In this document: positions 1,840 to 41,362 of the stretch, one piece after another
How positions within the stretch are numbered: the stretch's first letter is position 1
How the letters are laid out: each line of letters begins with the position of its first letter
Source of the DNA: a virus
Length of the DNA stretch: 41,362 nt
Direction: 5' to 3' (one strand)
IMG/VR virus record: IMGVR_UViG_3300027852_000080
Coordinates: 1-41,362 of that record
Program-made: the position numbers and the translations under genes
The notes under the pieces: generated by a model
Told to the model about the DNA's origin: nothing
Database searches by the model: none
The model's input: the letters and a program-made list of their open reading frames with translations, nothing else

Positions 1840-2175
1840 ATGGATAGACCACACAGGTTAAACAGCAGCACCATTAAACTGAAGCTGGACGCGGACGGAG
1901 AAGAGGTGACGATGTACATCACCATTGTTTACTCGGAAGACCAGAAGCCCGTTGAGGTTTTTGTTAATTGTAAGAACCCGATATTCGCGGAACATATGAA
2001 CGTGTTCACTATTTTAGTCTCGCGGCTACTGCAAGCCGGTACGCCCATGGGTGAGATACAGGGCGACCTGTCCGGCGTAAGCTCCCCCATAACGAGCCAC
2101 CACGCTAAAACGGGGGAATTCAAATCCCTGTACGCACGCATCGGTAAAATCTTAGAGGAGCACGCAACCGGGTGA
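1840..2175 (+). CDS. Free-standing TSCPD-like (RNR C-terminal-type) protein
   Basis: This 111-residue protein starts at the ATG after AAGGAG; the frame is open further upstream but without a matching site. It resembles the C-terminal TSCPD-type domain of B12-dependent (NrdJ) ribonucleotide reductase: a ITIVYSEDQKPVEVFV strand-turn-strand (residues 27-42), a helix, then SRLLQAGTPMGEIQGDLSGV (61-80), which parallels the family pattern of an ...ALQ-GVP-E-I... helix. The similarity is judged from memory. No reductase catalytic domain is attached, and none is seen elsewhere in the window. Its GTGA overlap with the large terminase gene suggests co-translation with packaging proteins. Known TSCPD domains are reductase appendages or small proteins of unclear role, so the function here is open. 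Confidence 0.55.
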   Translation: MDRPHRLNSSTIKLKLDADGEEVTMYITIVYSEDQKPVEVFVNCKNPIFAEHMNVFTILVSRLLQAGTPMGEIQGDLSGVSSPITSHHAKTGEFKSLYARIGKILEEHATG

Positions 2176-3932
2176 CTCGACCGACAGGGACGACACCCGT
2201 AGAGTACACTGGGCCACAGGAGCAGCTTCGTCGTAAGATGATGGCTCGGTTGGCCCGTCAGTCGTTCTTGCGATTTTGCCTGGCCATCTGCCCTTGGATG
2301 GTTATCGAAGAGTCCACCCTCCTGATAATCCACTACATGGAAAAACTGGCTTTTGGCCGGATTTCTAAGCTAATGATATTCCTCCCCCCTCGAACGGGGA
2401 AAACCCTACTGAGTTCGCTATACCAGGCGTGGTTTATGGGGGTGACAGGAGGCAACCAGAAGTTGATGGGCATTTCCTACGCGGCGACGTTAGCTCAGAT
2501 GATAGGAGGTGTGGTTCGGGATATTGTGGAGTCGGACGAGTACGCTGAGATATTCCCTGAGATACGGATCCGGGAGAGTTCTCGCGGTAAAGGATCGTGG
2601 GCGGCGTACAACACAGGAGAAGAGCGCCAACAAGACGGGTCATTTTTCGCGGGTGGCGCGGGTACCGGTATTGCGGGGCGAGGTTGGAACCTTGGCGCGA
2701 TAGACGACCCGTTGTCTGAGCAGGATGCAGATTCGACACTGGTTAAAGATGGACTTTACGAGTGGTGGGGTCAGGGCTTTTACTCACGAAGGCAACCCGG
2801 TGCCTCCCGCGTAATGATAATCAATACCCGATGGGCGATGGACGACCTGAGTGGGCGACTGCTAGAAGCTGAAAAAAACGACAGAGGAGAAGGGCTGTCT
2901 CGTCAAGGCAAGAAACACCTGGAACAGGTGCGGAAGAAAGTGGCGGCTAAAAAGATTGGCGGGGTGGCTGAGGAGGACAATGAGGGGTGGACCGTGGTAT
3001 CCATACCGGCGGAGTTGGATGACCGCACCAGCTTGATACTTAACCAGTTTACCGCGCAAGCGCAAGCCGTAAACCAGGAGCAGGAAGACTCTCGGGCGCG
3101 GAAAGAGGATCGCCCCCCAGAAAAAATTACTCGGATTGAGTACGAAGCGGGAGACTCCTACGCGCCTCGGCGATGGCCCCTGACAGAGTTGGCTAAACAG
3201 AAAAACGAGATGTCTGCGAGGGCGTGGAACGCCCTGTACCAGCAAAGCCCCTCAGTAGAGGAAGGCACTATCTTGAAACGTAAAGATTGGCGAAAGTGGC
3301 CGGAGTCGTCCCCTCCTGAGTGCGTTAAGGTCATCGCTTGCTATGATACGGCGTTTGAGGAGACGGAGACGGGGGATTTTTCGGCACGAACGACTTGGGG
3401 GATTTTCAAACCGGCTGGCGTGCCCCAATACAGCCTGATACTGATTGAGGCGTACAAGGACCGGCTGTCTCTGCCTGACCTGAAGGAAGAGGTGCGAAGC
3501 CACGCCCGTCATTACCAGCCAGACATAATCCTGATTGAGAAACGAGCGTCTGGAGCGTCACTGATCCAAGAGCTACGCCGAACCGGTTTGCCGGTAAAAC
3601 CTTGGCTGCCTCCGGCAAAACTGCTCCAGGGTCGAGGTTCCAAGGGTAAGATACCGAGGGCGCATTTGGCCTCGATACCGTTGGAGCAAGGGTTGGTGTG
3701 GTACATGCCTCGTAAATGGGCTGATGAGGTAATCGATGAGTGTACGGCGTTTCCGTTTGGGAAGACCGACGACTACGCCGATACCGTGACGATGGCATTA
3801 ATTTACGCTAGAATGCGATACTACCTACAAACGTGGTCAGACGGCGAGGACCGAGCAGAGCCGGACGACGAGGACGGACCGTCTCGTTCGAGGGCGACAA
3901 CCCGGAGGGAGATGGCTCGCCAGAGTCGCTGA
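2172..3932 (+). CDS. terL: Terminase large subunit
   Basis: This 586-residue protein is the ATP-driven motor and headful or site nuclease that packages DNA through the portal. Residues 72-78 read PPRTGKT, the Walker A loop in the variant form common in large terminases. GAIDDP around residues 175-180 is the Walker B region with two aspartates. The C-terminal RNase H-like nuclease shows Asp392 (ACYDTAF), Glu456 (LIEKRASG) and Asp533/534/537 (DDYAD). The start is a GTG overlapping the previous stop as GTGA; no ATG near it fits better. The final 35 residues are charged and probably disordered. The length is normal for the family. Confidence 0.95.
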   Translation: MTRPTGTTPVEYTGPQEQLRRKMMARLARQSFLRFCLAICPWMVIEESTLLIIHYMEKLAFGRISKLMIFLPPRTGKTLLSSLYQAWFMGVTGGNQKLMGISYAATLAQMIGGVVRDIVESDEYAEIFPEIRIRESSRGKGSWAAYNTGEERQQDGSFFAGGAGTGIAGRGWNLGAIDDPLSEQDADSTLVKDGLYEWWGQGFYSRRQPGASRVMIINTRWAMDDLSGRLLEAEKNDRGEGLSRQGKKHLEQVRKKVAAKKIGGVAEEDNEGWTVVSIPAELDDRTSLILNQFTAQAQAVNQEQEDSRARKEDRPPEKITRIEYEAGDSYAPRRWPLTELAKQKNEMSARAWNALYQQSPSVEEGTILKRKDWRKWPESSPPECVKVIACYDTAFEETETGDFSARTTWGIFKPAGVPQYSLILIEAYKDRLSLPDLKEEVRSHARHYQPDIILIEKRASGASLIQELRRTGLPVKPWLPPAKLLQGRGSKGKIPRAHLASIPLEQGLVWYMPRKWADEVIDECTAFPFGKTDDYADTVTMALIYARMRYYLQTWSDGEDRAEPDDEDGPSRSRATTRREMARQSR

Positions 3933-7489: not shown

Positions 7490-7978
7490 ATGACTGACAT
7501 ACAGTGGGAAGCGCATACAGCGACAACTGATTTTTCGGAAACTAACCCCGTGCAAGACATGCTGGCCGAACGAGGGCCGGACATGATCAAGGCGACAGAA
7601 GCCGCCGAAAAGCAGATAGGGGGTGCGGAATGCCCTGTGAAGGTGCAGACGTGGAACCTGTTGCTGATGCCTCTACAGGCACCAAAAGAAACGCGAAGCG
7701 GGATAATCTTGTCGGACACCACAGTAAATGCGATGGAGCATAACAATTACGTGGCTAAGATAATCAAGATGGGGCCGATGGCTTTTACCGTAGACCGGAT
7801 ACGGTGTGAGGATCGCGAAGTGGATGCAGACAACATCCCCAAAGTAGGGGATTGGGTTGTGGTCAGCCGATTATCGGGGCAACGGATCAACTACAAAGGG
7901 GTGCGAATGAACGTATGCACCGATGACTCTGTTATTTTGGTGGTGGAAAACCCAACCGCCTGCTACGTGATGGTTTAA
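7490..7978 (+). CDS. GroES-like co-chaperonin
   Basis: This 162-residue protein matches the GroES (Cpn10) layout: a strand WNLLLMPLQAPKET (about 55-68) equivalent to the N-terminal strand and the lead into the mobile loop, a hydrophobic SGIILSD segment like the GroES GIVL tripeptide that docks on GroEL, then IPKVGDWVVV and YKGVRMNVCTDDSVILVVE matching the late strands. It carries about 50 extra N-terminal residues. Phage co-chaperonins such as T4 gp31 replace GroES so that host GroEL can fold the capsid protein; the place upstream of scaffold and capsid genes suits that. The start has a clear GAGGAG site. The family call is by eye but the order of motifs is good. Confidence 0.75.
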   Translation: MTDIQWEAHTATTDFSETNPVQDMLAERGPDMIKATEAAEKQIGGAECPVKVQTWNLLLMPLQAPKETRSGIILSDTTVNAMEHNNYVAKIIKMGPMAFTVDRIRCEDREVDADNIPKVGDWVVVSRLSGQRINYKGVRMNVCTDDSVILVVENPTACYVMV

Positions 7979-9023: not shown

Positions 9024-9644
9024 ATGCAACCTAATGAATTTGATGCTATGATGAAGACACAAGGAAATGCCCAGGAGCCGACACAAAGCGTGGCAGCTAC
9101 GACTCCTGTTGATAAAGCTAACGCGACATGCGCGCCGGAGGTAGCCGCCCAAGACGGGCCGATACACCCTGCCGTAGACAGCGTACAACATTCTTCTCCG
9201 GTACACGCCGAGGTTGGACGACCCGTAAGATGGGTGCAGCCTAACCTGTTGGATGCCCCCCCTCCAAGGCCGGGCTACGTGGATCGCTGGGTATGGGTTG
9301 GGTTTGACACTGAAGCCCAAAGCAACATATCTACGCGACAAAGGGAAGGGTGGAGTCCCCGCGATCCGAATACCGTCCCCCAAGGATTCACATCTTTGGC
9401 TGGCAAAGACGGACGTTCTGGGACCATAACGGTACAAGGAATGTGCTTGATGGAAATGCCTGAAGAAGTTAATGCTCAAAGAACAGCGTTCTACGAGCAG
9501 AAGCAAGGGGAAATCGAAACTGCGGTTCAAGCGGAACTCGATGGCACCCAAGCAGAAGGCGGACTAGCCATCCAGCGCATGTCCAAGACCTCAGTGGTAA
9601 CAGGTGGAGGTAGAAAACCAACAGTCCTACCAGACAGAGGTTAA
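9024..9644 (+). CDS. Hypothetical capsid-cluster protein, 206 aa
   Basis: This protein has a polar, probably disordered first 65 residues, then a conserved-looking core that includes RPGYVDRWVWVGFD (about 90-103), REGWSPRD and a later GMCLMEMPEEV segment, followed by a helix and a polar tail. I recall similar small proteins of unknown role next to capsid genes in other phages, but cannot name the family. Its position between the scaffold and decoration candidates makes a virion or assembly role likely. The start lies eleven bases after the previous stop, with a weak site (GAGGA). Confidence 0.65.
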   Translation: MQPNEFDAMMKTQGNAQEPTQSVAATTPVDKANATCAPEVAAQDGPIHPAVDSVQHSSPVHAEVGRPVRWVQPNLLDAPPPRPGYVDRWVWVGFDTEAQSNISTRQREGWSPRDPNTVPQGFTSLAGKDGRSGTITVQGMCLMEMPEEVNAQRTAFYEQKQGEIETAVQAELDGTQAEGGLAIQRMSKTSVVTGGGRKPTVLPDRG

Positions 9645-9679
9645 TATCTCCGAATAAAAACGTTAATCGGAGAAGTTAA

Positions 9680-10243
9680 ATGGCAAATCTTGATAACCCG
9701 AATGGGTTCTCTGTGGACAAGCACGTAGGAGGTGGGTGTAGCCGGTTGTCTGAGATGACAATCGACCCAGCTTATGCAGTAAAGCTCCACGTAGGAGACC
9801 CTGTTAAAAGTTCTGGAACGGGCCGGAACATTATAAAGGCGGGTGCGAGCGACGCTATCCGTGGTATTTTCCAAGGATGCAGCTACACGGCTGTCGATGG
9901 ATCAGTGGTATTCGCAAACGTATGGCCAGGCGCAAACCAAGCTAGAGTAGGCACCGAACCAGTGGCGAATATTTCCGCAGAAGACCCAGCACAAGAATTG
10001 TTGGTTCAGGTTAGTGGGGATTTCCAACCAGCAAATGTTGGCGATCTCGCAAATCTCACCGCAGGCACCGGCAATGACTTGACGGGCCGCAGTGGAGCGG
10101 AGATTGATTCAGCAACTTTAGGGTCAGGAGCTGCATATAAAATTGTGGGTCTTGCACCGATACCAGGCAACAGTTACGGCACGAATGCTCAGGTTCTCGC
10201 ACTAGCGGCGAAACATGAACTACGTGGCGGCACTATCGCATAA
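9680..10243 (+). CDS. Putative capsid decoration (cement) protein
   Basis: This 187-residue protein is directly upstream of the capsid gene and is rich in Gly, Ala, Val and Asn, with a beta-strand pattern and no membrane segment. Its start has GGAGAAG upstream. Small beta-rich proteins in this place commonly coat and stabilise the mature head. The DIRGIF-type turn (ASDAIRGIFQGCSYT, about 56-70) and the LLVQVSGDF strand fit such a fold, but the assignment depends mainly on position. Confidence 0.55.
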   Translation: MANLDNPNGFSVDKHVGGGCSRLSEMTIDPAYAVKLHVGDPVKSSGTGRNIIKAGASDAIRGIFQGCSYTAVDGSVVFANVWPGANQARVGTEPVANISAEDPAQELLVQVSGDFQPANVGDLANLTAGTGNDLTGRSGAEIDSATLGSGAAYKIVGLAPIPGNSYGTNAQVLALAAKHELRGGTIA

Positions 10244-10255
10244 CGGGAGAATATT

Positions 10256-11173
10256 ATGGGTACTATGAATAGGGCTTTATTCCCTAAACAGTTGCAAGAC
10301 GGGCTGAATACGATATTTGGGTTGGAGTACAAACGCTATCCAGAAGAATGGCGAGCGTGTTTCGACGTGGAAAACAGTAACAAAGCATACGAGGAAGACG
10401 TGCTGGTGGTCGGCTTGGGTCCAGCTCAAGTTAAACCCGAAGGCGGTCCAGTAGCGAAAGACGAAGGCGGAGAATCTTGGGTTTCCAGATACCGCAATGA
10501 GACAATCGCATTGGCTTTCGCGTTGACACAAGAAGCGGAAGAAGACAATCTTTACGGCCAATTGGGTGCCAAGTATAGTCGAGCATTGGCTCGGTCTATG
10601 CAGCACACTAAGGAAGTGAAGGGGGCCTCTATATATAATAACGGTTTCGATGCGGCCCACCCAGGCGGCGACGGTGTGCCTTTATTTTCTACCGCACATC
10701 CTTTGTGGAACGGCGGCGTATTGTCTAATATGTTACCAACACCAGCGGATTTATCGGAAACGGCGTTGGAAGATGCCATGATCCGTATTTCCCTGTTCAC
10801 CGATGATCGAGGTATCCCGACGATGCACCAGGCGCGTAAGCTGCTTGTCCATCCATCGAATACCTTTGAGGCTTCACGTATTTTGAAGTCTACGGGTCGG
10901 GTAGGAACGTCGGATAATGACAACAACGCGTTGAAGACTGAAGGGTACTTGGGTGGCGGTGTGGCAGTTAATCACCGTTTCACTGACCCAGATGCGTGGT
11001 TTGTGCGAACAGATTGTCCTGACGGTCTGAAACACAAGAAACGTATCGCGTTGAAACGCGGTATCGAAGGCGACTTCGAGACAGGCAACATGCGGTATAA
11101 AGCGCGTGAGCGGTACACGTTTGGCCATACTGACTACCGAGGAGCCTTTGGTTCTCAAGGTGGCGGCAGCTAA
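10256..11173 (+). CDS. Major capsid protein (Mu gpT-like type)
   Basis: This 305-residue protein is the best candidate for the main shell subunit. Residues 143-149 read LFSTAHP, followed by GGVLSN, a signature I associate with Mu gpT-like major head proteins, and the protein has the helix then beta-hinge then P-domain-like order of HK97-fold subunits: ETIALAFALTQEAEEDNLYG near 82-101 and the repeated mid-protein helix before residue 135. A strong terminator follows directly, as is usual for a highly expressed gene. The start has GGGAG upstream. No protease cleavage site or protease gene was recognised nearby. Confidence 0.85.
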   Translation: MGTMNRALFPKQLQDGLNTIFGLEYKRYPEEWRACFDVENSNKAYEEDVLVVGLGPAQVKPEGGPVAKDEGGESWVSRYRNETIALAFALTQEAEEDNLYGQLGAKYSRALARSMQHTKEVKGASIYNNGFDAAHPGGDGVPLFSTAHPLWNGGVLSNMLPTPADLSETALEDAMIRISLFTDDRGIPTMHQARKLLVHPSNTFEASRILKSTGRVGTSDNDNNALKTEGYLGGGVAVNHRFTDPDAWFVRTDCPDGLKHKKRIALKRGIEGDFETGNMRYKARERYTFGHTDYRGAFGSQGGGS

Positions 11174-11306: not shown

Positions 11307-11459
11307 ATGCGCTCGAAACTCAAAGCCATTATCGAGGCTTCAAAACCTAAACAGAAAGAGGCTTCAAAACCTAAACAGAAAGAGGCTTCAAAGCCTAAAC
11401 AGAAAGAGGCTTCAAAGCCTAAACAGAAAGAGGCTTCAAAACCCACGAAAACTAAATAA
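11307..11459 (+). CDS. Lys-rich octapeptide-repeat protein, 50 aa
   Basis: This short gene starts with ATG behind AGGGGA and encodes a ten-residue lead (MRSKLKAIIE), four perfect copies of the octapeptide ASKPKQKE and a final ASKPTKTK. The product is very basic, has no hydrophobic core and is probably disordered, resembling histone H1-tail-like or Ala/Lys/Pro-rich DNA-coating peptides. It is the first gene after the capsid terminator and promoter candidate, so strong expression is possible. Packaged DNA condensation or binding to an acidic partner are possible roles; neither is shown. The good site and the in-frame repeats argue that it is translated. Confidence 0.65.
   Translation: MRSKLKAIIEASKPKQKEASKPKQKEASKPKQKEASKPKQKEASKPTKTK
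11337..11432 (+). repeat. 24-base tandem repeat, four copies
   Basis: Four 24-base units lie at 11337-11360, 11361-11384, 11385-11408 and 11409-11432, with a fifth partial unit beyond. They differ only in a wobble base of one Lys codon (AAA or AAG). Each encodes ASKPKQKE. The near identity suggests recent expansion by slippage or unequal exchange. Confidence 0.95.
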
Positions 11460-30945: not shown

Positions 30946-33900
30946 ATGGGGGACAAGTCTTTTGCAGATGAAATCTGGGGTTCGCTACCCAGCGACGACT
31001 CCCCACCTGAAACGCAAACCTCTGGAGGGAGCAGTTTTGCCGATGAGATTTGGGGGACGTTGCCCGAAGCAGACCCACTCACGCCTACGGAATTAGAACC
31101 CCAACTCGAAGAAGAGCCTGACCCCGTTCTGGCGGGTTCGGATAACGAAACCTCTTTAGGGGGTCATTTCGCACGGGGGGTAGACCAGTTACAGGGGTTC
31201 GGGTATTCCGCACTCGAAGCGGCGGGAGAGGGACTTGAGTTAGAAGGTCTCACCGATTTCGGACGTGAGGGGCGTGAACGCAACATCGACGAAGCGGCGG
31301 AAAATCCCCCATCCCAATCCTTCTCAGACGCAAACTCCGCAGGAGACTACGCTACGTGGGCCAAAGAAACATTCGTGTCTCAGGCACCCCTAATGGCCCC
31401 ATCTTTAGCTGGTGCTGGAGCTGGAGCCGTAGTGGGCGCACCTCTTGGCCCGATTGGAGCCACAGTGGGCGGTGTCGTAGGGGCTTTAGTGCCGTCACTG
31501 GTGCTGGGCGCGGGAGAGGTCCAACAGAAAATCAAAGAGAAAGACCCTGAAGCCTCAGCCCCCTCCCTTGTTTTCGGCGCGGGAGCCACAATCGCGGCCC
31601 TAGACTCAGCATTTCCAGGGAAAATGGGGTCTTTTCTAGTCAAGAAGCTGGGGACAGACATCGCTGAGGAAGTGGTCAAAAAAGCACTCAGTAAACGACT
31701 CGCAACCGAAGTGCCCTTGAACATGACAATGGAAGGGACGACGGAAATCGTACAAAGCGCCATATCTGAAGCGGCTGCGTCCTCCGCCACAGGTGCCCCC
31801 ATCGACTGGGCGGAGTGGAAAGCCGGAGCGGTTGAGGAGTTCGCGGCAGGAGCCTTGATGGGTGGCAGCATCACTACGGCGGCAGAGGTGTACGCTGCGA
31901 AAAAAGGCGCGTCAACCCCTCCTGAAGGAGACACCCCACCCTCTGAAAGGGAGTCAAGGGTTTCTTCCGTTGTGGAGAACCACCCTGCGGTGAAAGAAAT
32001 CCAAGACCCCGCCCAACAGCAAGCGGTTGTTGAAGCGATTAAGGCCATGGCCTCCGAGGATGGAGTGCTTGCTCGGATAGACTCAGTGTTAGCTGAGGAA
32101 GGAGGGTCTGATGTTGCTCGGTCAGAGGTAGATGTTTACCTTTCAGAGTATATACGGGACGCTGTTTCCGAGGTGGCCCAAGACACGGCACCGCCTAAAG
32201 GTGAACCGGTGCCCGATACCACGTCTTTCGGCCTTAACGAAGAGTTTCCTGAAGCAGTGGCCGCCGCACAAAAAGAAAACCTCACTCCCGAGAACGCTGA
32301 ATCTTTAGCCGCCCAAATGGACGCGTTTGAATCTGGGCGCAAACCCGCAGTGTTAATCACTGAAGGGGAGCCGATGCCTGTGATTCCTGAAGGGGCTAAA
32401 GTCGAAGAGATTCCTGGCCGAGGGCAACTCATCTACCGAGATGAGCAGACCCTTGAAGCGGCAAAGAATAACAAAATGGGTGAAGCCCTTGGTTTAGGCA
32501 TTGATGAAAAACCGATGACTGACCAAGTGGTGACAGCCCGAAATTCTGAAGGGGTGGTGGTTACAGATACCGCCACAGACGGTCGTCCTGAAGTCGTTAA
32601 CGCCGCAGGAGTTTTAGCGGGGGAAGGCGGGACTGTAGAGCACCGGACGGTAGACGAAGCTTTGTCCGAGCGAACCCAAGGTGCCGAGGGGGGGAGTTTC
32701 CAATCCACCGTGATGGCTGATTTAGAAAGAGAAATAGTGAGAGGGCAGTACGCGCCAGTTTCGGATATTAGGGGAGAGGCTGCCCCTGAAACTGCACCGG
32801 TTACGGATAAAGCGACCTATGACGAAGTTCAACAGGAAATAGACGATCTGACAGACGCATTGGAGAGAAAATATGGGGATGGCTTTATTACGGAGAACTT
32901 GAACTACGACGTTGCCCAAGCTTTAGGCAAACCTCACCAACTGCCTGAGGGGTACGATACCTCAGATTTAGACCGGCTATCTTCGTTACAGGACAAACTA
33001 AATGGTATCGGCGACAAAGAACTCGCCGAATTCAAAAGACGTGTTGTTAAGGATTCGGGGTTGCCGGAACCCCTCGCGACAGCGGCGTTAAAGGTGATGG
33101 GTGTGAGGGATTCCTACCCTTTCGCGATGAAGAACCTGAGAGGTTTAGGAACCTCTGTCCCGCAAACTCTGACAGATCTATACAACTTTTTCGATTCCAG
33201 AAAAGCAAAATCCCCCGCAGGTACTTCGCTAGATAGGGTTTACGCTAAATTTTACTGGGGTGGGACTGGAGAAAACCCCGCGCTAATGGCTTCGTTCACT
33301 CACGATTCAGGAAAAAAAATCGCTGCCGACAGTGAAATCCTGACATCTGTCGAGAGAATAGCGAACGCCGTTTATTCGGCTCGGGGTGAAGAACCAATCG
33401 ACTTGTCTAAAACTACGTCTAAACCTAAAAAACTTGACAAGAGTTTAGACGTTAAAACCCCCATAGATATTGCAGCACACGAAGCGGCGACTAGCCCTAC
33501 AAACGCCAAACCGCAGCCTTCCGAAGCTCAAATAGAAGCGGGAAACTACAAAAAAGGTGACGTGAAGGCTTTTGGTCTCGACATCGCAGTGGAGAACCCT
33601 AAAGGATCTACCCGATCAGGGGTTGACACAAAAGGGAAGCCGTGGGAGACCACGATGCAGCACCACTATGGGTACGTTAAGCGGAGCAAAGGGGCTGACG
33701 GGGACGCAGTGGACGTTTTCATCGGGCCTAAAGAGCAGAGCAATAAAGCATTTATCGTTGACCAGAAAAACGAAAACGGCAAAGGGTTCGACGAGCATAA
33801 GGTTATCTTAGGTGCTGAGTCCCAGGTGGAAGCCGAGAAGATCTACGACTCCAACTATGCCCCAGACTGGAAAGGCCGTGGCGCGACCACCGAAGTTACT

Positions 33901-36900
33901 ACTGACCAACTGAAGGAGTGGGTGGCTAAGGGCGACCTCACCAAACCGGCAAAAGGCCAGTTGAATAAAACCAGAGAGCGAGTCTCCGCTGGGGATAAAG
34001 TGGTAGACCTTGACCCTTTTTTGAAAAAGAGCAAGCCCTCCGCGAAACCCGCACCTTCGGACAAACCGAAAACCGTAGGCCGTAAGCCAGCCGCACCTGG
34101 CCGCAGCACGGTGACTGACGTACATGAAAAAGTGAATGCGGTAAAGGGGATGCAAAAACTGCTAGACAACGGTGAAATAGTAATCGTGCAGTCCGCGAAA
34201 GACTTGCCAAAGAAACTCGCAGGGGATGCACAGGGGGTGTACGACCCAGAAACAGGAAAAACCTATCTAGTTGCTGATGCTCTGAAACCAAACCAGGTGC
34301 AGAGCGTGCTGTTGCACGAGATGACCCACCGAATGTTTATGCAAAACCCTGACGTGCAAGCCCAAATGGTGGGTGAGGTAGGGGAGTTCTCGGTGATCAT
34401 GAGCAAGATTGAACGGGGGGACCTGAAGGGGCCTTACAAGCGGGTGTTTGATGCCGCGATGTCCCGCATCCCAGAAAACACCCCGCAGGCGGACAGGGTG
34501 GAGGAATTCGCAGCCTACGTTGTCTCGGAGTTCAACAGCGGGGCAACACTTCCCGCCCACCTAGCTGCATGGGCCAAACGCGTTATGGCTAAAATAAAAG
34601 CAGGTTTAGCGGCGGTAGGTATGCCTTTGAAAGGGATTTCTCCTGCGGATTTAGACCTCGCGGTACGAAGAACAATTGCACAGAAAGAACCGGCGAACCC
34701 GCACCTCAAGCGAGAACGCGCTTTGTACTCCAAGGCTAAAGACGACCGAAGACGCCACTGGTACAAGAGACCCGCTGGGATGTCTGACATCGACCAGATT
34801 CGGGACAAAGCCCTGTGGACAAAAGCTAAACTGTTGGGCCGTAAGTGGCTGACCCCTGAAGGGAATTTGGACGCAAAAGTGTACCAATTAAATACACTGA
34901 GGCAGGGTGACAATGTTGCTGAGGATTTGGAGGCGAAATTCCTGTTAAAGGGTTTTGACAAAGCGGTGAGGGGTGCGTACAAACACACCCTGAAAAGTAA
35001 ACTGTCTGTTTTGGACAAAGCGACCCGTCGAAAATTATCGGATGCGCTGAAGGTGCCTGACATGGCAGACATGGACCCATCAATTCCAGATTCAGTCAAA
35101 GTCCACCTCCTCGCCATGAGGCAGCACGTAGATAAACTGTCGATGATGTACGTGGACTTAGTGAGAGAGGAGGCGGTGTTGGGGCTTCAGTCAGGAACCC
35201 CCGCACTGCGACGAGCGGTACTCGGCGCTCGATTAATTGCAGAAAACAGCGAAGCCGTGGACGCGCACAACTCCGAGGCAAAAGCCTCTGGCAAAGACCA
35301 ACCGCAGCGCCGGAAAACCCCGAAGGCGATCCACGAGAGAACAAAAAAGGAAGTCTCTGAGTTAATGGATAGCTCCGAGGACCCTCGAACCCTGTATAAA
35401 GAAGCGGCTGACATCGCCCGTAAGCTTGGCACCATCGATACCATCACGCACAATGCCGGAAGGTACGTGCTCCGATCATACCGGATGTACGAGGACGGGG
35501 GTCTGTGGTTGAAGAAGATGCCAGCTAAAGTGAAAAAAACAGCGGCTGATTTTGTTCGCAGCGAAATGCTGGAGCACAACGACAAAGCCGCTGGGTGGCC
35601 TGCGGAAAAACTAGAAAACGAGGTGCGTAAGGCCCTCGAAAACCTGATACCCGACAAAGCTCGAGGGGGCGACTCGGTTGCGTCTATGATTATGGCCCCG
35701 AAAATGGGCGTAGATATGCAGCACATCCTCACTCGGCGAAAAGACATCCCTGTAGAAATCAGGGAATATCTAGGTGAGTACCATGACGCAGCGTACAACT
35801 ACGCACACACCGTTGAAAAGGTGGCACACCTCGCCACCTCAAAACAGTTTTTCAATGAAGTGGAGAAAATGGGTGTCGGGGAATTCCTGTTCAAGGACGA
35901 AGACCGCCCTTCGGGAGCGACCACCTCTCTCGGGGGCGAGAAAAATCAGTCCATCGGTGCTCTTGCGGGGTATTACACCTTTCCTGAGGTAGCTGAGGCT
36001 TTCACGGAGCACATGAGACCGGTGGACCTTGACGGAATTTTAGGAGCCTTAGTCCAATTTAACTCACTGGCCAAAATCAATATGACGGTGTATAACCCGC
36101 CCACGTCGTCTCGAAACTTCATATCCGCTGGCGGTTTCGCCCTGATGAACGGCCACCTGCGCCCCAGTAAAATTAAGCACGCCGTTAAGATGGGTATGTC
36201 TATGCTGGGTGCTGGGGGGAAGGAAGCCAAAGATTACCGGAAAGAGTTATCAAGGTTGCGGGTGATTGGGGACGGCGTTCGAGCGGGGGAGGTCGCACAA
36301 ACGTTTAGAGACGCTAAGGTTTACTCTTTGGCTAATGACGAAATAGGGGAATCCACGGCAACGATTGCGTCTAACGCAGGCCGCACCTTAATCCGAAAAT
36401 TTAAAGGTGTTTTTGAAGGCATTTACTTGTTTGGGGACGACTTTTGGAAAGTTATCGGTTTCGAGGCAACGGTTTCGGACTTGATTAAATATAAAGGTTT
36501 AACTCGGGAAGAGGCTGCACCCATCGCAGCAAACCAAATTAGAAACACGTACCCAACATATTCAATGGTGGGCCGAGGCCCGAAAACGTTGGCCAGGTTT
36601 CCTGGGATGGGTATGTTCGTCAGTTTCCCGGCGGAGGTATTACGAACGTCGCCTAACATCGTCAGACAGGTGGGGCACGACTGGTCCAATGACATGAAGA
36701 TTCCCGCCGCCAAACGAGCCACAGGGATCTTCGTCATGACAGCGGGTCTCGCGGCAATGGTGACTATCGCTCGAAACCTGATGGGGTACGACGACGAGGA
36801 CGATGAGGCCGCTCGGGTTCTCGGTCCTGAATGGATGAAGAACTCCACCCTAATGTTCTTGCCCCGAGATGAGGAAGGCAACATGCGGTACTGGGACGTG

Positions 36901-38058
36901 TCGAACACGTATGCGTATAACTACTACACCCGCCCACTGATGGCTTTGCTCAGAGACCAACCTTTCGGCACCCGGTTGGCAGAAGCGTCTAAGTCGCTTG
37001 TCACTCCTTTTCTGGGAGAAGAGGCAGGCTTCAAGGTGCTTCGTGAGGTAGGCACCAACCGCAACGAGTGGGGGCAAAAAATTTACTATGAAACAGACCC
37101 AACACCGGGGTCCACGGTAGGGCCTGCGACCAAACACATCTTCGACGGAATGAAGCCTGGATTCCTGAAATCACAGGACCGGCTGGCAAAAGGTGCCGAA
37201 CAGTACATCTCTGGGTCAGGCAAGCAATATTCTCTGTCCGACGAAATCTGGTCGTTCTTCGGTTTCCGGATGACAACGGTAAATCCTAAAGTGGCGCTAT
37301 TCTATAAAGCGTATGCTCTGTCGGATGCCAAAAGGGATGCCACCCAGTTGATGAAACGGGTCGCAGCCAAAGATATGAACGATGTCCCTGAAGCGGATAT
37401 TCGCAGTGCATGGATTAACGCAAACGCCATTGTCTATAAGGCACACCAAGACTTACAGACAGCCATACGCGCTTCAGAGAAGCTGGGCTTGTCCAAAAAA
37501 GACAAAGATTGGGTTCTCTCGGATAAAACCATGAAAGGCGCGATGAAAGCCTCGGGCCTCAGTGCAGATGCGTATGAGATAATACGATCCAAGGGTATCA
37601 GTAAAGCGGACATGGCGGCACTGGATAGCGGGGAAATCCCGATATGGACTCCCTCAGACCGCTTCTTTGATGGGATGCTCAGTAAGATCCATTTGATTAT
37701 CTCCGATGAAGAGTTACAAAAGACCATCGAAGGCCGATTGAGTGGCCGGGAAGAGTACATGCAAGACCTGCAACAGGAATTCGAGGACTCAATCGAATCC
37801 AAGAGGCAGCAACAGTTGCTGGATGAAAACGGGCTGTCGGTACCCGACACAGAGGGTCTCGACTCTGGCGAGGACCTGTCTTCGGTATTGTCTGGAAATG
37901 ACCCAGAAAAAATAACCGCCTATTTATCTGAGAACCAAGTGCCAAAAGATGATATTATTCGAGCAACCAAGGAAATCTCGCCAGCGTGGGCAGACATGTT
38001 AGCGCAAGCCCCGCCGGATTCAGTGACACTACTGAAGCACGCTGGCGTTTTGAGTTAA
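30946..38058 (+). CDS. Giant ejected polyvalent protein, 2370 aa
   Basis: The N-terminus holds two copies of SFADEIWG (residues 5-12 and 30-37), then a Gly/Ala-rich hydrophobic region (about 146-191) that could insert into membranes. Residues about 857-1003 resemble the pyrophosphatase-like domain (InPase type) of phage polyvalent proteins, with HYGYVKRSKGADGDAVDVF at 907-925 and Asp918/920/923. Residues about 1090-1220 form a zincin-like peptidase with HEMTH at 1124-1128 and a Glu in EEFAA (1186-1190) as probable third ligand. The last 1000 residues, including a hydrophobic span near 1925-1948, resemble large polyvalent-protein-associated regions. It is probably ejected into the cell with the DNA. 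The start follows the previous TAG directly; no Shine-Dalgarno is seen. Confidence 0.85.
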   Translation: MGDKSFADEIWGSLPSDDSPPETQTSGGSSFADEIWGTLPEADPLTPTELEPQLEEEPDPVLAGSDNETSLGGHFARGVDQLQGFGYSALEAAGEGLELEGLTDFGREGRERNIDEAAENPPSQSFSDANSAGDYATWAKETFVSQAPLMAPSLAGAGAGAVVGAPLGPIGATVGGVVGALVPSLVLGAGEVQQKIKEKDPEASAPSLVFGAGATIAALDSAFPGKMGSFLVKKLGTDIAEEVVKKALSKRLATEVPLNMTMEGTTEIVQSAISEAAASSATGAPIDWAEWKAGAVEEFAAGALMGGSITTAAEVYAAKKGASTPPEGDTPPSERESRVSSVVENHPAVKEIQDPAQQQAVVEAIKAMASEDGVLARIDSVLAEEGGSDVARSEVDVYLSEYIRDAVSEVAQDTAPPKGEPVPDTTSFGLNEEFPEAVAAAQKENLTPENAESLAAQMDAFESGRKPAVLITEGEPMPVIPEGAKVEEIPGRGQLIYRDEQTLEAAKNNKMGEALGLGIDEKPMTDQVVTARNSEGVVVTDTATDGRPEVVNAAGVLAGEGGTVEHRTVDEALSERTQGAEGGSFQSTVMADLEREIVRGQYAPVSDIRGEAAPETAPVTDKATYDEVQQEIDDLTDALERKYGDGFITENLNYDVAQALGKPHQLPEGYDTSDLDRLSSLQDKLNGIGDKELAEFKRRVVKDSGLPEPLATAALKVMGVRDSYPFAMKNLRGLGTSVPQTLTDLYNFFDSRKAKSPAGTSLDRVYAKFYWGGTGENPALMASFTHDSGKKIAADSEILTSVERIANAVYSARGEEPIDLSKTTSKPKKLDKSLDVKTPIDIAAHEAATSPTNAKPQPSEAQIEAGNYKKGDVKAFGLDIAVENPKGSTRSGVDTKGKPWETTMQHHYGYVKRSKGADGDAVDVFIGPKEQSNKAFIVDQKNENGKGFDEHKVILGAESQVEAEKIYDSNYAPDWKGRGATTEVTTDQLKEWVAKGDLTKPAKGQLNKTRERVSAGDKVVDLDPFLKKSKPSAKPAPSDKPKTVGRKPAAPGRSTVTDVHEKVNAVKGMQKLLDNGEIVIVQSAKDLPKKLAGDAQGVYDPETGKTYLVADALKPNQVQSVLLHEMTHRMFMQNPDVQAQMVGEVGEFSVIMSKIERGDLKGPYKRVFDAAMSRIPENTPQADRVEEFAAYVVSEFNSGATLPAHLAAWAKRVMAKIKAGLAAVGMPLKGISPADLDLAVRRTIAQKEPANPHLKRERALYSKAKDDRRRHWYKRPAGMSDIDQIRDKALWTKAKLLGRKWLTPEGNLDAKVYQLNTLRQGDNVAEDLEAKFLLKGFDKAVRGAYKHTLKSKLSVLDKATRRKLSDALKVPDMADMDPSIPDSVKVHLLAMRQHVDKLSMMYVDLVREEAVLGLQSGTPALRRAVLGARLIAENSEAVDAHNSEAKASGKDQPQRRKTPKAIHERTKKEVSELMDSSEDPRTLYKEAADIARKLGTIDTITHNAGRYVLRSYRMYEDGGLWLKKMPAKVKKTAADFVRSEMLEHNDKAAGWPAEKLENEVRKALENLIPDKARGGDSVASMIMAPKMGVDMQHILTRRKDIPVEIREYLGEYHDAAYNYAHTVEKVAHLATSKQFFNEVEKMGVGEFLFKDEDRPSGATTSLGGEKNQSIGALAGYYTFPEVAEAFTEHMRPVDLDGILGALVQFNSLAKINMTVYNPPTSSRNFISAGGFALMNGHLRPSKIKHAVKMGMSMLGAGGKEAKDYRKELSRLRVIGDGVRAGEVAQTFRDAKVYSLANDEIGESTATIASNAGRTLIRKFKGVFEGIYLFGDDFWKVIGFEATVSDLIKYKGLTREEAAPIAANQIRNTYPTYSMVGRGPKTLARFPGMGMFVSFPAEVLRTSPNIVRQVGHDWSNDMKIPAAKRATGIFVMTAGLAAMVTIARNLMGYDDEDDEAARVLGPEWMKNSTLMFLPRDEEGNMRYWDVSNTYAYNYYTRPLMALLRDQPFGTRLAEASKSLVTPFLGEEAGFKVLREVGTNRNEWGQKIYYETDPTPGSTVGPATKHIFDGMKPGFLKSQDRLAKGAEQYISGSGKQYSLSDEIWSFFGFRMTTVNPKVALFYKAYALSDAKRDATQLMKRVAAKDMNDVPEADIRSAWINANAIVYKAHQDLQTAIRASEKLGLSKKDKDWVLSDKTMKGAMKASGLSADAYEIIRSKGISKADMAALDSGEIPIWTPSDRFFDGMLSKIHLIISDEELQKTIEGRLSGREEYMQDLQQEFEDSIESKRQQQLLDENGLSVPDTEGLDSGEDLSSVLSGNDPEKITAYLSENQVPKDDIIRATKEISPAWADMLAQAPPDSVTLLKHAGVLS

Positions 38059-38070
38059 GAGGAAAATACA

Positions 38071-38931
38071 ATGGTATACACACCAACTCAGTGGCAGAAT
38101 AATCGCACCCCTGCTCTCAATGAGGCTAACCTAAACAAACTGGAGCAGGCCGTAGCCGCCAATGACGTGGCCGTTACCGGTAAAGCGGCACTAAACCACC
38201 AACACACCACTTCGGACATCCCGGATTTGGATGCCTACGGGCAAGCGGTGGTGGATTCTAAAGATGCAGCAACGCTTCAGTCGGCGCAGGACTTTACCTA
38301 CAGCCAAGCAGTGGTGGATTCTAAAGATGCAGCAACGCTTCAGTCGGCGCAGGACTTTACCTACAGCCAAGCAGTGGTGGATTCTAAAGATGCAGCAACA
38401 CTTCAATCGGCGCAGGACTTTACCTACAGCCAAGCAGTGGTTGACTCTAAAGATGCTGCGGTTTTAGGTGTTGCTAATACTGGAGTAGCAAATGCAGCGA
38501 CAGCACAAGCCGCAGCCGATGCCGCCCAATCAACCGCAGATAACGCAAAAGAATTCGACGCAGGAACCAGGATGGTTTTCTATCAAGCCGCCCCCGTGGG
38601 ATGGGTTCAAGTTCCAATTCCCGATTGGTCTATGCTCATGGCGGGGACTAGCGGCGGCGGCTGGACTGGAGGTGATACGCAGCCATTCACTCACGAGCAC
38701 ACCACGGGGGATTTCGCGTTAACTGAAGCCCACAACGGGCCACACGATCACCCGTACACAGCAAACCCCGAAAGTGGTACCAACAGTAACGCCGGTGGTT
38801 CTGACTTACCCAGAAACTTCAATGCAGCAAGCACAACAGGCTCGTCAGGTTCAGGAGTCCCACATAACCACGGTGAAACTTCAACCATTACAGCACAATA
38901 CGCAACGGTGTTGATATGTCAGAAGTCGTAA
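38071..38931 (+). CDS. Tail fibre with tandem repeats, 286 aa
   Basis: The N-terminal 55 residues are an attachment-type domain (YTPTQWQNNRTPALNEANLN). Residues 58-120 are three near-identical 21-residue units and part of a fourth (QAVVDSKDAATLQSAQDFTY), probably a trimeric coiled or beta stalk. The C-terminal 120 residues carry the DAGTRMVFYQAAPVGWVQVP strand and His pairs (HEH, HDH, HNH) followed by YATVLICQKS, the well known fibre-tip type domain. It starts with ATG behind AGAGGA. Its end overlaps the next gene. Confidence 0.85.
   Translation: MVYTPTQWQNNRTPALNEANLNKLEQAVAANDVAVTGKAALNHQHTTSDIPDLDAYGQAVVDSKDAATLQSAQDFTYSQAVVDSKDAATLQSAQDFTYSQAVVDSKDAATLQSAQDFTYSQAVVDSKDAAVLGVANTGVANAATAQAAADAAQSTADNAKEFDAGTRMVFYQAAPVGWVQVPIPDWSMLMAGTSGGGWTGGDTQPFTHEHTTGDFALTEAHNGPHDHPYTANPESGTNSNAGGSDLPRNFNAASTTGSSGSGVPHNHGETSTITAQYATVLICQKS
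38242..38430 (+). repeat. 63-base tandem repeat, three copies plus partial
   Basis: Units of 63 bases lie at 38242-38304, 38305-38367 and 38368-38430, with a shorter fourth beginning at 38431. They differ at only a few bases (first Ala codon, a Leu-Gln codon pair). The frame is kept and each unit encodes 21 residues of the fibre shaft. Copy number can change the shaft length. Confidence 0.95.
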
Positions 38932-39218: not shown

Positions 39219-39512
39219 ATGGCTGAAGGCAAACGATCTCCCACGGCACACCGAACGCCTGCTCAAATACGTGCACACGGCAAAGGCTATCAGGCAACCC
39301 CTACCCAGAAGAAACGCAGAGCCAAGCGTAACGCCGCACGCGCAGCAGTGGTAAAGAAGAAAGGCGCGGCAGCCGTTCGGGGCAAAGACGTAGACCACAA
39401 AAAACCGCTATCTAAAGGCGGGACTAACGCCCCTGGCAACCTTCGAGTCACTTCAGTGAAGAAAAACCGGGGGCATGGAATGTCCAAAGGCGGTCGAAGT
39501 AAAGCTAAATAG
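39219..39512 (+). CDS. HNH-like nuclease, 97 aa
   Basis: The protein has a long, strongly basic N-terminal arm (QKKRRAKRNAARAAVVKKK, about 30-48) and then the phage HNH core: VDHKKPLSKGG at 58-68 with Asp59-His60, Asn74 in the APGNLRV segment and Asn83-Arg84. No cysteine pairs are present, so any zinc support is lost or not needed. HNH proteins nick DNA and often accompany terminases. The last eight bases overlap the end of the minus-strand helicase gene, so the two transcription units converge tail to tail. Confidence 0.7.
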   Translation: MAEGKRSPTAHRTPAQIRAHGKGYQATPTQKKRRAKRNAARAAVVKKKGAAAVRGKDVDHKKPLSKGGTNAPGNLRVTSVKKNRGHGMSKGGRSKAK

Positions 39513-40908
39513 CGGCCCCGCCATACCGCCTCACGCAATCCAGAAGCTCTTGTTCACTCTCAGCTTTGTGGTCTAGCATATCCACCACTAAGGTGTCCAC
39601 GGTATCTTTTGCCAGTATTCGGTGGATAACCACATCGTTTTGCTGGCCCCTACGAGGCAACCTGGCGTTCATCTGGTTGTATAGCTCCAAATCTGGCGTA
39701 ACACCAAACCAAACGATATGATGCCCCCCGTGCTGAAAGTTCAGCCCGTGCCCTATGGAAGCGGGGTGCCCTGCGAGGATCTTTATCTTACCCAAATCCC
39801 AACGCCCCTGCATCGCCACCATGTCTGCGTCAGACAACTTCCCGCTGAGGTGTTCCACTGCGGAGCCATACCGGTCGATAATTCGTTCTATGTCCGACTG
39901 GAAGGAGTAGGCTAGTAGTAAAGGTGCGTCACCCGTTCCATAAACAATCTCATCCAGAGCTTCCAGTTTCTCTTTATGCACTTCTTCCCACTCAGGGGAT
40001 TCTGGAGCTAGGTACATCGCCCCGTTTGCGAACTGTAAAGTCTTGCCGAACAAGACCCCTTTACTCAAAACCTCTAACACATGCCCTGAAGCCAACTCAT
40101 GCAGCATGTCTTTCTCCATGTCCGCGTACTCCTTCATTAACTTAGTGGACAATTGGACCGTCACATCGTTAAATTGTGTGGGGAATTTATCCGCCTCCAA
40201 AACACTGGTTATGTCAGACAACGCGTGGAAAATCTGTGTTTTGCCCACGGGTGTCGGATCATACTTTTCAAATTGTGTGTTCATGCGAGGAGCAAAGTAC
40301 GTCTGGTGATATACCCCTTTGTCCGTGCCCAATCGCGCCCCTCCGTCGATTAAAAGCATCTGGGAAAAAAGACCATCCAGCCCGTTAGGAGCGGGAGTCC
40401 CGGTCATCCCCATACGACGTTCGATGTAGGGGATTAAAGGCAGCATAGCGGAAACCCTCTTACTGGAGTAGTTTCGCAGTTTTGACATCTCGTCGAAAGC
40501 CACCATGTTGAAGGGCAGATAGTGCCCCTGGTTGAGGTACTTACTGATAAGGGTGTCGGCGATCCAGGCCATGTTTTCAAAATTAGTGATGTAAATATCT
40601 GCGCGGACCATCAATGCCCGTTCACGTTGCGCGGGAGTTCCTCGAACAATGGAAATCCTGAGATGTTTCAGGTGCTCCCATTTTTGGGCCTCTTGGAGAT
40701 ACACCAAAAGCACCACTCGAACAGGGGCGAAAATTAAAGCCCCGTAGACGTGCGCTGAAAATATCTGGTCTCGGATGGCCGTCAGTAAAGTCACCGTTTT
40801 GCCTTTACCCATGGGCCACCAAAGGTTCGAGTGCGCGTGGGTTTTTAGGTGCTGTACGCCGGTTTCTTGCTCCAGGGTCATCTCCGAGCGGGGCAGTGTG
40901 TTAGTCAT
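39505..40908 (-). CDS. SNF2-family helicase or translocase
   Basis: This 467-residue protein has the SNF2/DEAD helicase motifs in order: Walker A WPMGKGKT (residues 31-38), DEMS in VAFDEMSKLRN (139-142, in place of DEAH), MTGTPAPNG as motif III (168-176), and motif VI QMNARLPRRGQ (412-422) with two arginine finger candidates. Phage proteins of this type translocate on DNA and serve replication, recombination or packaging. It lies in a minus-strand operon with a nuclease. The start overlaps the end of the upstream gene by eight bases. The 467-residue length is short but complete. Confidence 0.9.
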   Translation of the reverse strand: MTNTLPRSEMTLEQETGVQHLKTHAHSNLWWPMGKGKTVTLLTAIRDQIFSAHVYGALIFAPVRVVLLVYLQEAQKWEHLKHLRISIVRGTPAQRERALMVRADIYITNFENMAWIADTLISKYLNQGHYLPFNMVAFDEMSKLRNYSSKRVSAMLPLIPYIERRMGMTGTPAPNGLDGLFSQMLLIDGGARLGTDKGVYHQTYFAPRMNTQFEKYDPTPVGKTQIFHALSDITSVLEADKFPTQFNDVTVQLSTKLMKEYADMEKDMLHELASGHVLEVLSKGVLFGKTLQFANGAMYLAPESPEWEEVHKEKLEALDEIVYGTGDAPLLLAYSFQSDIERIIDRYGSAVEHLSGKLSDADMVAMQGRWDLGKIKILAGHPASIGHGLNFQHGGHHIVWFGVTPDLELYNQMNARLPRRGQQNDVVIHRILAKDTVDTLVVDMLDHKAESEQELLDCVRRYGGAAI

Positions 40909-41299
40909 AGATGGGTAAACTCCTTGGATGGGTTGGAGAGTGATTTCTCCCCCCTAAATAGTGGTAGAGGTGAATTTTGATGGCATCGGGAACACTGTCT
41001 ACCACGTACACAACCGCTCCGTGCCGCCGCATCTCCTCGTGTTTCAGTTTTTGACTGTCGGTCGCTTTCTTGCCCAGTCGCTTGTACTCGATGTAGTAGG
41101 TGAACCCCGACACAATATGCAGCCTGTCTGGGTACGCGCGTTGGCCTCCCGCCCCGCCGCCGAATTTGACGCATACGAAGCCCAGTGTTTTGCGAGCGTA
41201 GCTACTGCCCTTGGACTCCGTTACTTTTTCCAAGGGGGTCTGGTCTGCTTTGAGTTTAATCTTCCGAGCACCCGGTAATTTTGGAGGTTTAAAAGTCAT
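40901..41299 (-). CDS. VRR-NUC domain nuclease
   Basis: This 132-residue protein starts at ATG 41299 (a TTG just upstream is in frame but has no better context) with AGGA about eight bases upstream. It has the VRR-NUC fold motifs: Glu24 in TPLEKV, PDR with Asp58, the E-x-K pair Glu71 and Lys73 in YYIEYKRLG, and Gln83 in DSQK. Family members cut branched or replication-fork DNA and often sit beside SNF2 helicases in phages, as here. Its end overlaps the helicase start, so the two form an operon. The start overlaps a stop in the next upstream frame as TGATG. Confidence 0.85.
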   Translation of the reverse strand: MTFKPPKLPGARKIKLKADQTPLEKVTESKGSSYARKTLGFVCVKFGGGAGGQRAYPDRLHIVSGFTYYIEYKRLGKKATDSQKLKHEEMRRHGAVVYVVDSVPDAIKIHLYHYLGGRNHSPTHPRSLPIYD

Positions 41300-41362
41300 C
41301 AATCTTTCCTGTATCGTTTACCGGACCAACCGGCTGCTCGTAGAGGCAAACCCTTCGTCCAT
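41299..41362 (-). CDS. Partial C-terminus of an upstream minus-strand gene
   Basis: On the minus strand, a frame open from the right edge ends at TGA (41301-41299) and overlaps the VRR-NUC start as TGATG. It encodes the last 20 residues visible (basic, beginning WTKGLPLRAAG and ending in KRYRKD). Overlap of this kind supports a real coupled gene. The identity cannot be told from this piece; a replication or recombination gene is likely given its neighbours. Confidence 0.5.
   Translation of the reverse strand, partial: WTKGLPLRAAGWSGKRYRKD

Follow-up and report, generated by a model that had tools for sequence, protein, structure and literature searches.

The gene at 1840-2175 (+) of the window, meaning the whole 41,362-nucleotide stretch of viral DNA that was analysed, almost certainly encodes a detached C-terminal (oligomerisation) domain of the class II ribonucleotide reductase (RNR) NrdJ that belongs to the TSCPD family (PF12637, PHROG 23565). 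As judged from its sequence, the protein is a divergent new member of that family having neither the catalytic barrel nor the cysteine tail of the full enzyme.

The open reading frame begins with ATG, encodes 111 residues and is preceded by an AAGGAG-type ribosome-binding site (1827-1834, +) placed shortly before the start codon. Its codon-usage score of 0.16 was the sole positive value among the six frames; the other five frames over the same interval scored from -0.05 to -0.58 and each contained stops. Given its own AAGGAG, its own start and this frame-specific score, 1840-2175 is a real gene. Both of the sequences that the initial annotation had picked out, PVEVFV and SRLLQAGTPMGEI, were present in the translation, and the overlap with the large terminase gene (terL) that it described was seen in the DNA, where the TGA stop (2173-2175) overlaps the terL GTG start (2172-2174) as GTGA. 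Inspection of the protein found no literal TSCPD motif and a single cysteine among the 111 residues with no CxxC, hence the cysteine forms neither a redox nor a zinc pair.

The family assignment, also made in the initial annotation, was upheld by a Pfam profile search, by tblastn matches to roseophage NrdJ proteins, by end-to-end alignment and by the predicted fold. The profile comparison which that annotation had named, against PF12637, gave a match at E 2.8e-9 and 37.6 bits over residues 23-108. As this score exceeds the curated gathering score of the family (22.8 bits), the TSCPD resemblance is not a product of chance. The match to PHROG 23565 (4.1e-4, 21.5 bits, residues 3-78) was weak and came from a library lacking curated cut-offs, and the PHROG of the RNR large subunit also matched weakly. 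In tblastn searches of phage records the protein matched only roseophage sequences, at about 30% identity and at the C-termini of full class II RNRs; weak matches to Lactobacillus phage P185, Aeromonas phage AhC3_1 and Salmonella phage Chi (E 0.03 to 9) were left out. No close relatives were found among the viral or genome contigs searched, the sole matches there being the C-termini of viral and bacterial class II NrdJ proteins (33-34% identity). At 27-36% identity, the NrdJ C-termini aligned collinearly with the entire window protein, from RPxxL to EEH. Therefore the protein corresponds to one NrdJ domain rather than to a chance motif.

Conserved residues were examined in a comparison of 33 sequences composed of 26 NrdJ proteins and seven free-standing TSCPD proteins, that of the window included. 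Residues P4, P37, E39, F41, and S61 were conserved in 31 to 33 of the 33 sequences and present in all seven free-standing proteins, with E39 and F41 found in every aligned sequence. The PxE[VI]F strand motif and the conserved serines of the two helices are represented in the window protein by P37, E39, F41, S61, and S96. A zinc/redox cysteine tail followed the TSCPD domain in 25 of the 26 NrdJ proteins (the other is cut by a contig end) and in none of the seven free-standing proteins. Profile searches with PF02867, the catalytic RNR barrel, found no match in the window protein or in the whole 41 kb window. Thus, the protein shares its family, by profile and by fold, with the NrdJ C-terminal region (IscU-like/TSCPD domain plus zinc finger, the 'CRD'), but differs in being a separate gene and in lacking the catalytic barrel and the six-cysteine zinc/redox tail.

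Sequence and profile searches of the PDB found no entry for the TSCPD domain. An AlphaFold2 model of the window protein built from a 15-row alignment had a pLDDT of 84 and a pTM of 0.77, and its structural matches included IscU (1q48, Z 6.2 over 98 residues), SufU (6jzv, Z 5.5), and SufE/CsdE, the IscU/SufU/SufE matches having Z values of 5-6 over nearly the whole chain. The C-terminal domains of NADH peroxidase-type flavoproteins scored similarly to IscU and SufU (Z <8), so that IscU is not singled out. The best matches among viral models were two proteins called 'ribonucleoside-diphosphate reductase', of 184 and 136 residues, and a full phage NrdJ. Class II RNR C-termini have been reported to contain an IscU-like domain (Martin et al. 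2022, PMC9669993), and the IscU/SufU-like fold predicted for the window protein agrees with that report. The likeness to IscU, SufU and SufE is in the predicted alpha+beta fold over nearly the whole protein; the window protein differs in that it lacks the Fe-S or persulfide cysteine set of those proteins, and the matches are at about 10% identity and Z 5-6.

Free-standing TSCPD genes were found in six other phage sources, where none adjoined terL and some lay no more than about 4 kb away. The L045 gene (122 residues) is ATGA-coupled behind a primase-helicase gene, with terL 3.4 kb away on the other strand. That of L050 (4708-5238, 176 residues) follows SbcC/SbcD-like genes. In L062 the gene (127 residues) comes after Cas4 exonuclease, RuvC, and SSB-like genes, and a candidate terL lies 3.7 kb further on. 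In ctSAF950 (MW202622, complete and circular) a protein of 156 residues is encoded beside the endolysin, about 21 kb from terL. In Rhodobacter phages, among them RcDormio and RcOceanus (both complete), the gene for a 113-residue protein is flanked by those of an AAA ATPase and a VRR-NUC nuclease, with an FtsK-gamma/GapR protein as a further operon neighbour, and EBPR podovirus 2 encodes one of 117 residues (gp11), 2.8 kb before terL. The RcDormio protein (gp62) scored just below the PF12637 cut-off. Profile searches for the catalytic domain PF02867 found no match in ctSAF950, RcDormio, RcOceanus, or EBPR podovirus 2, nor in the L045, L050, and L062 records, which may be partial. The members of PHROG 23565, a family that itself bears the name 'ribonucleotide reductase', RcDormio gp62, RcOceanus gp50, and EBPR podovirus 2 gp11 resemble the window protein in being small, free-standing TSCPD proteins with no catalytic RNR and no cysteine tail, but are of low identity to it and have other gene neighbours. 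In a tree made from short rows, some of which have long branches, the free-standing copies did not form one clade; there were six label changes, at least two of them forced by supported branches. As the copies are not monophyletic, the tree tentatively suggests that the domain has been set free more than once. The window protein itself is on a long branch (2.47) and its exact place is unsure. Since similar lone copies occur in several unrelated phages and at other loci, the TSCPD protein is a recurring phage accessory protein of putative role and probably not a part of the packaging machinery.

Two of these records had other features. The L050 protein has an N-terminal cysteine cluster, CKCDICKK...CPTC, and with it CxxC motifs that the other six free-standing proteins lack; a stretch related to this N-terminus occurs alone in Vibrio phage Va1. 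In L062 the probable terL is at 9143-10426, and its Walker A sequence, GGGIGWGK, runs into a putative intein-like sequence (CVRKDTEIYD...).

What might a lone TSCPD domain do? The C-terminal region of NrdJ drives formation of tetramers or hexamers when dATP or dGTP is present, and its six cysteines carry electrons (PMC5704485). NrdJb, a C-terminal subunit with a gene of its own, docks on NrdJa close to the cofactor/active-site cleft (PMC4520616). Because the region drives oligomerisation and docks beside that cleft, the lone domain would be likely to bind RNR. Because it lacks the cysteines, it should be incapable of reducing the active site and would not shuttle electrons. By analogy, we tentatively favor a scheme, which we hold at somewhat less than an even chance, in which the detached domain binds a class II RNR and alters its oligomerisation or allosteric control. 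The enzyme bound could be the host's own or be encoded in phage sequence that the record lacks, and this change in it would give a dNTP supply suited to phage replication. The bound protein may instead compete with the tail of NrdJ itself. Regulation of the host reductase had also been one of the two proposals in the initial annotation. The broader proposal, that several phage lineages independently detached the oligomerisation domain of the B12-dependent RNR as a trans-acting modulator of the host enzyme, is more doubtful.

A point against a link to RNR is that several of the TSCPD copies are found among DNA-handling genes, which fits equally well a recruited domain that has lost any RNR link and serves in replicating or recombining the phage DNA, for instance as an adaptor of an ATPase or nuclease. 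Because of the gene neighbours of the free-standing copies we consider this the main rival to RNR modulation, albeit an unlikely one. Those neighbours include the FtsK-gamma/GapR protein, AAA ATPase, and VRR-NUC nuclease of the Rhodobacter phages, the primase-helicase of L045, the SbcC/SbcD-like proteins of L050, and the Cas4-type exonuclease, RuvC, and SSB-like proteins of L062, and genes for an SNF2 helicase and a VRR-NUC-like nuclease are present in the window too, though at its far end. However, nucleotide-supply genes are also normally found in early modules, and thus context fails to separate the two readings; moreover, the TSCPD neighbours differ between phages and the ctSAF950 copy adjoins an endolysin gene. 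There is a slim chance that, as in the NrdJa/NrdJb pair of Pseudomonas, a class II RNR is split in this phage, with this gene encoding its C-terminal half and the catalytic subunit being encoded where the genome has not been sequenced. Split class II RNRs are known, including that of Thermus phage phiYS40 (PMC4520616, PMC3653736), and the window record is a linear contig that is probably incomplete. The Pseudomonas aeruginosa NrdJb is likewise the C-terminal part of a class II RNR made as a separate protein, but it is partnered by NrdJa and retains the redox cysteines, whereas the window protein lacks the cysteines and has no partner in the 41 kb window; also, a catalytic partner is missing from the complete phage genomes that carry a free-standing copy. 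Slimmer still is the chance that the gene is a functionless, decaying remnant of a lost nrdJ. Nothing but the domain remains and its tree branch is long, but the gene has kept a clean ribosome-binding site, its own start, and its coding signal, the family-wide conserved residues are retained, and the same truncation recurs across phages of several lineages.

The initial annotation had proposed that the protein acts in packaging, perhaps in place of a conventional terminase partner, and had asked whether its homologues always lie beside terL. They do not: the relatives were found at other loci, the kind of outcome which that annotation had named as refuting its proposal, although terL is present in several of those records without being adjacent. 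Among the phages examined the adjacency was seen only in this one. The window terL (2172-3932, +; 586 residues; phrog_38, 2.5e-74) has relatives in 22 viral contigs, several or many of them short, in which the TSCPD gene went undetected with both the Pfam profile and a profile of our own. The same two profiles detected none in the terL-related phages HTVC023P, HTVC027P, DSL-LC04, MinM2, and CRP-810. Two profiles were used since the Pfam profile alone missed the L045 copy at genome scale, which our own profile found. One of the 22 contigs (L002) is from a near-identical virus and starts inside terL. A terminase partner or small terminase (TerS) substitute translated with TerL would fit the GTGA overlap and the lack of any TerS recognised by profile within the window. 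Against such a role, an annotated TerS gene precedes terL by several kb in HTVC023P, DSL-LC04, and HTVC027P, and two small window genes, 833-1414 (+, 193 residues) and 1407-1823 (+, 138 residues), are possible TerS genes by position only. Database searches found no significant relative of either, and a single-sequence model of the 1407-1823 protein was poor (pLDDT 59). We therefore regard a packaging role as improbable given that the gene is absent beside related terL genes and its relatives are elsewhere. The TSCPD gene and terL are neighbours and not a conserved pair. The order of modules has probably placed the gene before terL by accident, the end of an early/middle block meeting the packaging genes, and the overlap probably gives translational coupling and no packaging function.

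A third upstream gene, 277-735, was rejected as a TerS candidate. The encoded protein of 152 residues has a weak relative (E 0.007) in HTVC023P-like contigs, a small conserved protein with the pattern YPxVxIxWxDxxGDSGW that is encoded several kb before terL and is not TerS. Elsewhere in the window, 7490-7978 encodes a GroES-like co-chaperonin (phrog_3188, 6.7e-9), and the HTVC023P/DSL-LC04 relatives have one too. An intergenic tandem array (11334-11443; 24-bp unit, 4.6 copies, 97% matches) lies downstream of the capsid gene and a 63-bp tandem repeat (38234-38456; 3.5 copies) is within a tail-fibre-like gene. The 2370-residue open reading frame at 30946-38058 is putatively a giant virion or ejection protein. 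The SNF2-type helicase gene overlaps that of the VRR-NUC-like nuclease (39505-41302, -) and the two run towards the other genes; the remaining replication genes probably lie past the window end.

A search of the literature by the word TSCPD, judged on title and abstract, found no phage-focused work, and the lone phage protein has so far figured only in annotation, under PF12637, PHROG 23565, or the name 'ribonucleotide reductase'. That name was given in the deposited records to the TSCPD proteins encoded at MW677510.1 37481-37822 (RcDormio gp62), MW677520.1 33306-33647 (RcOceanus gp50), and JF412295.1 3744-4097. A paper on Rhodobacter phages placed the 'ribonucleotide reductase' gene of RcC in nucleotide metabolism (PMC8601537), and that gene corresponds to a protein of 113 residues. 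As these phages lack the catalytic domain and proteins of 113-117 residues are not reductases on their own, the name is likely a misannotation that has been carried into a published survey. Hence, proteins of about 110 residues are among the phage 'ribonucleotide reductases' counted in gene lists and papers, which matters for the use of RNR as a marker in phage biology. The TSCPD domain has no settled function, and the lone phage copies are a minimal system for finding its binding partner.
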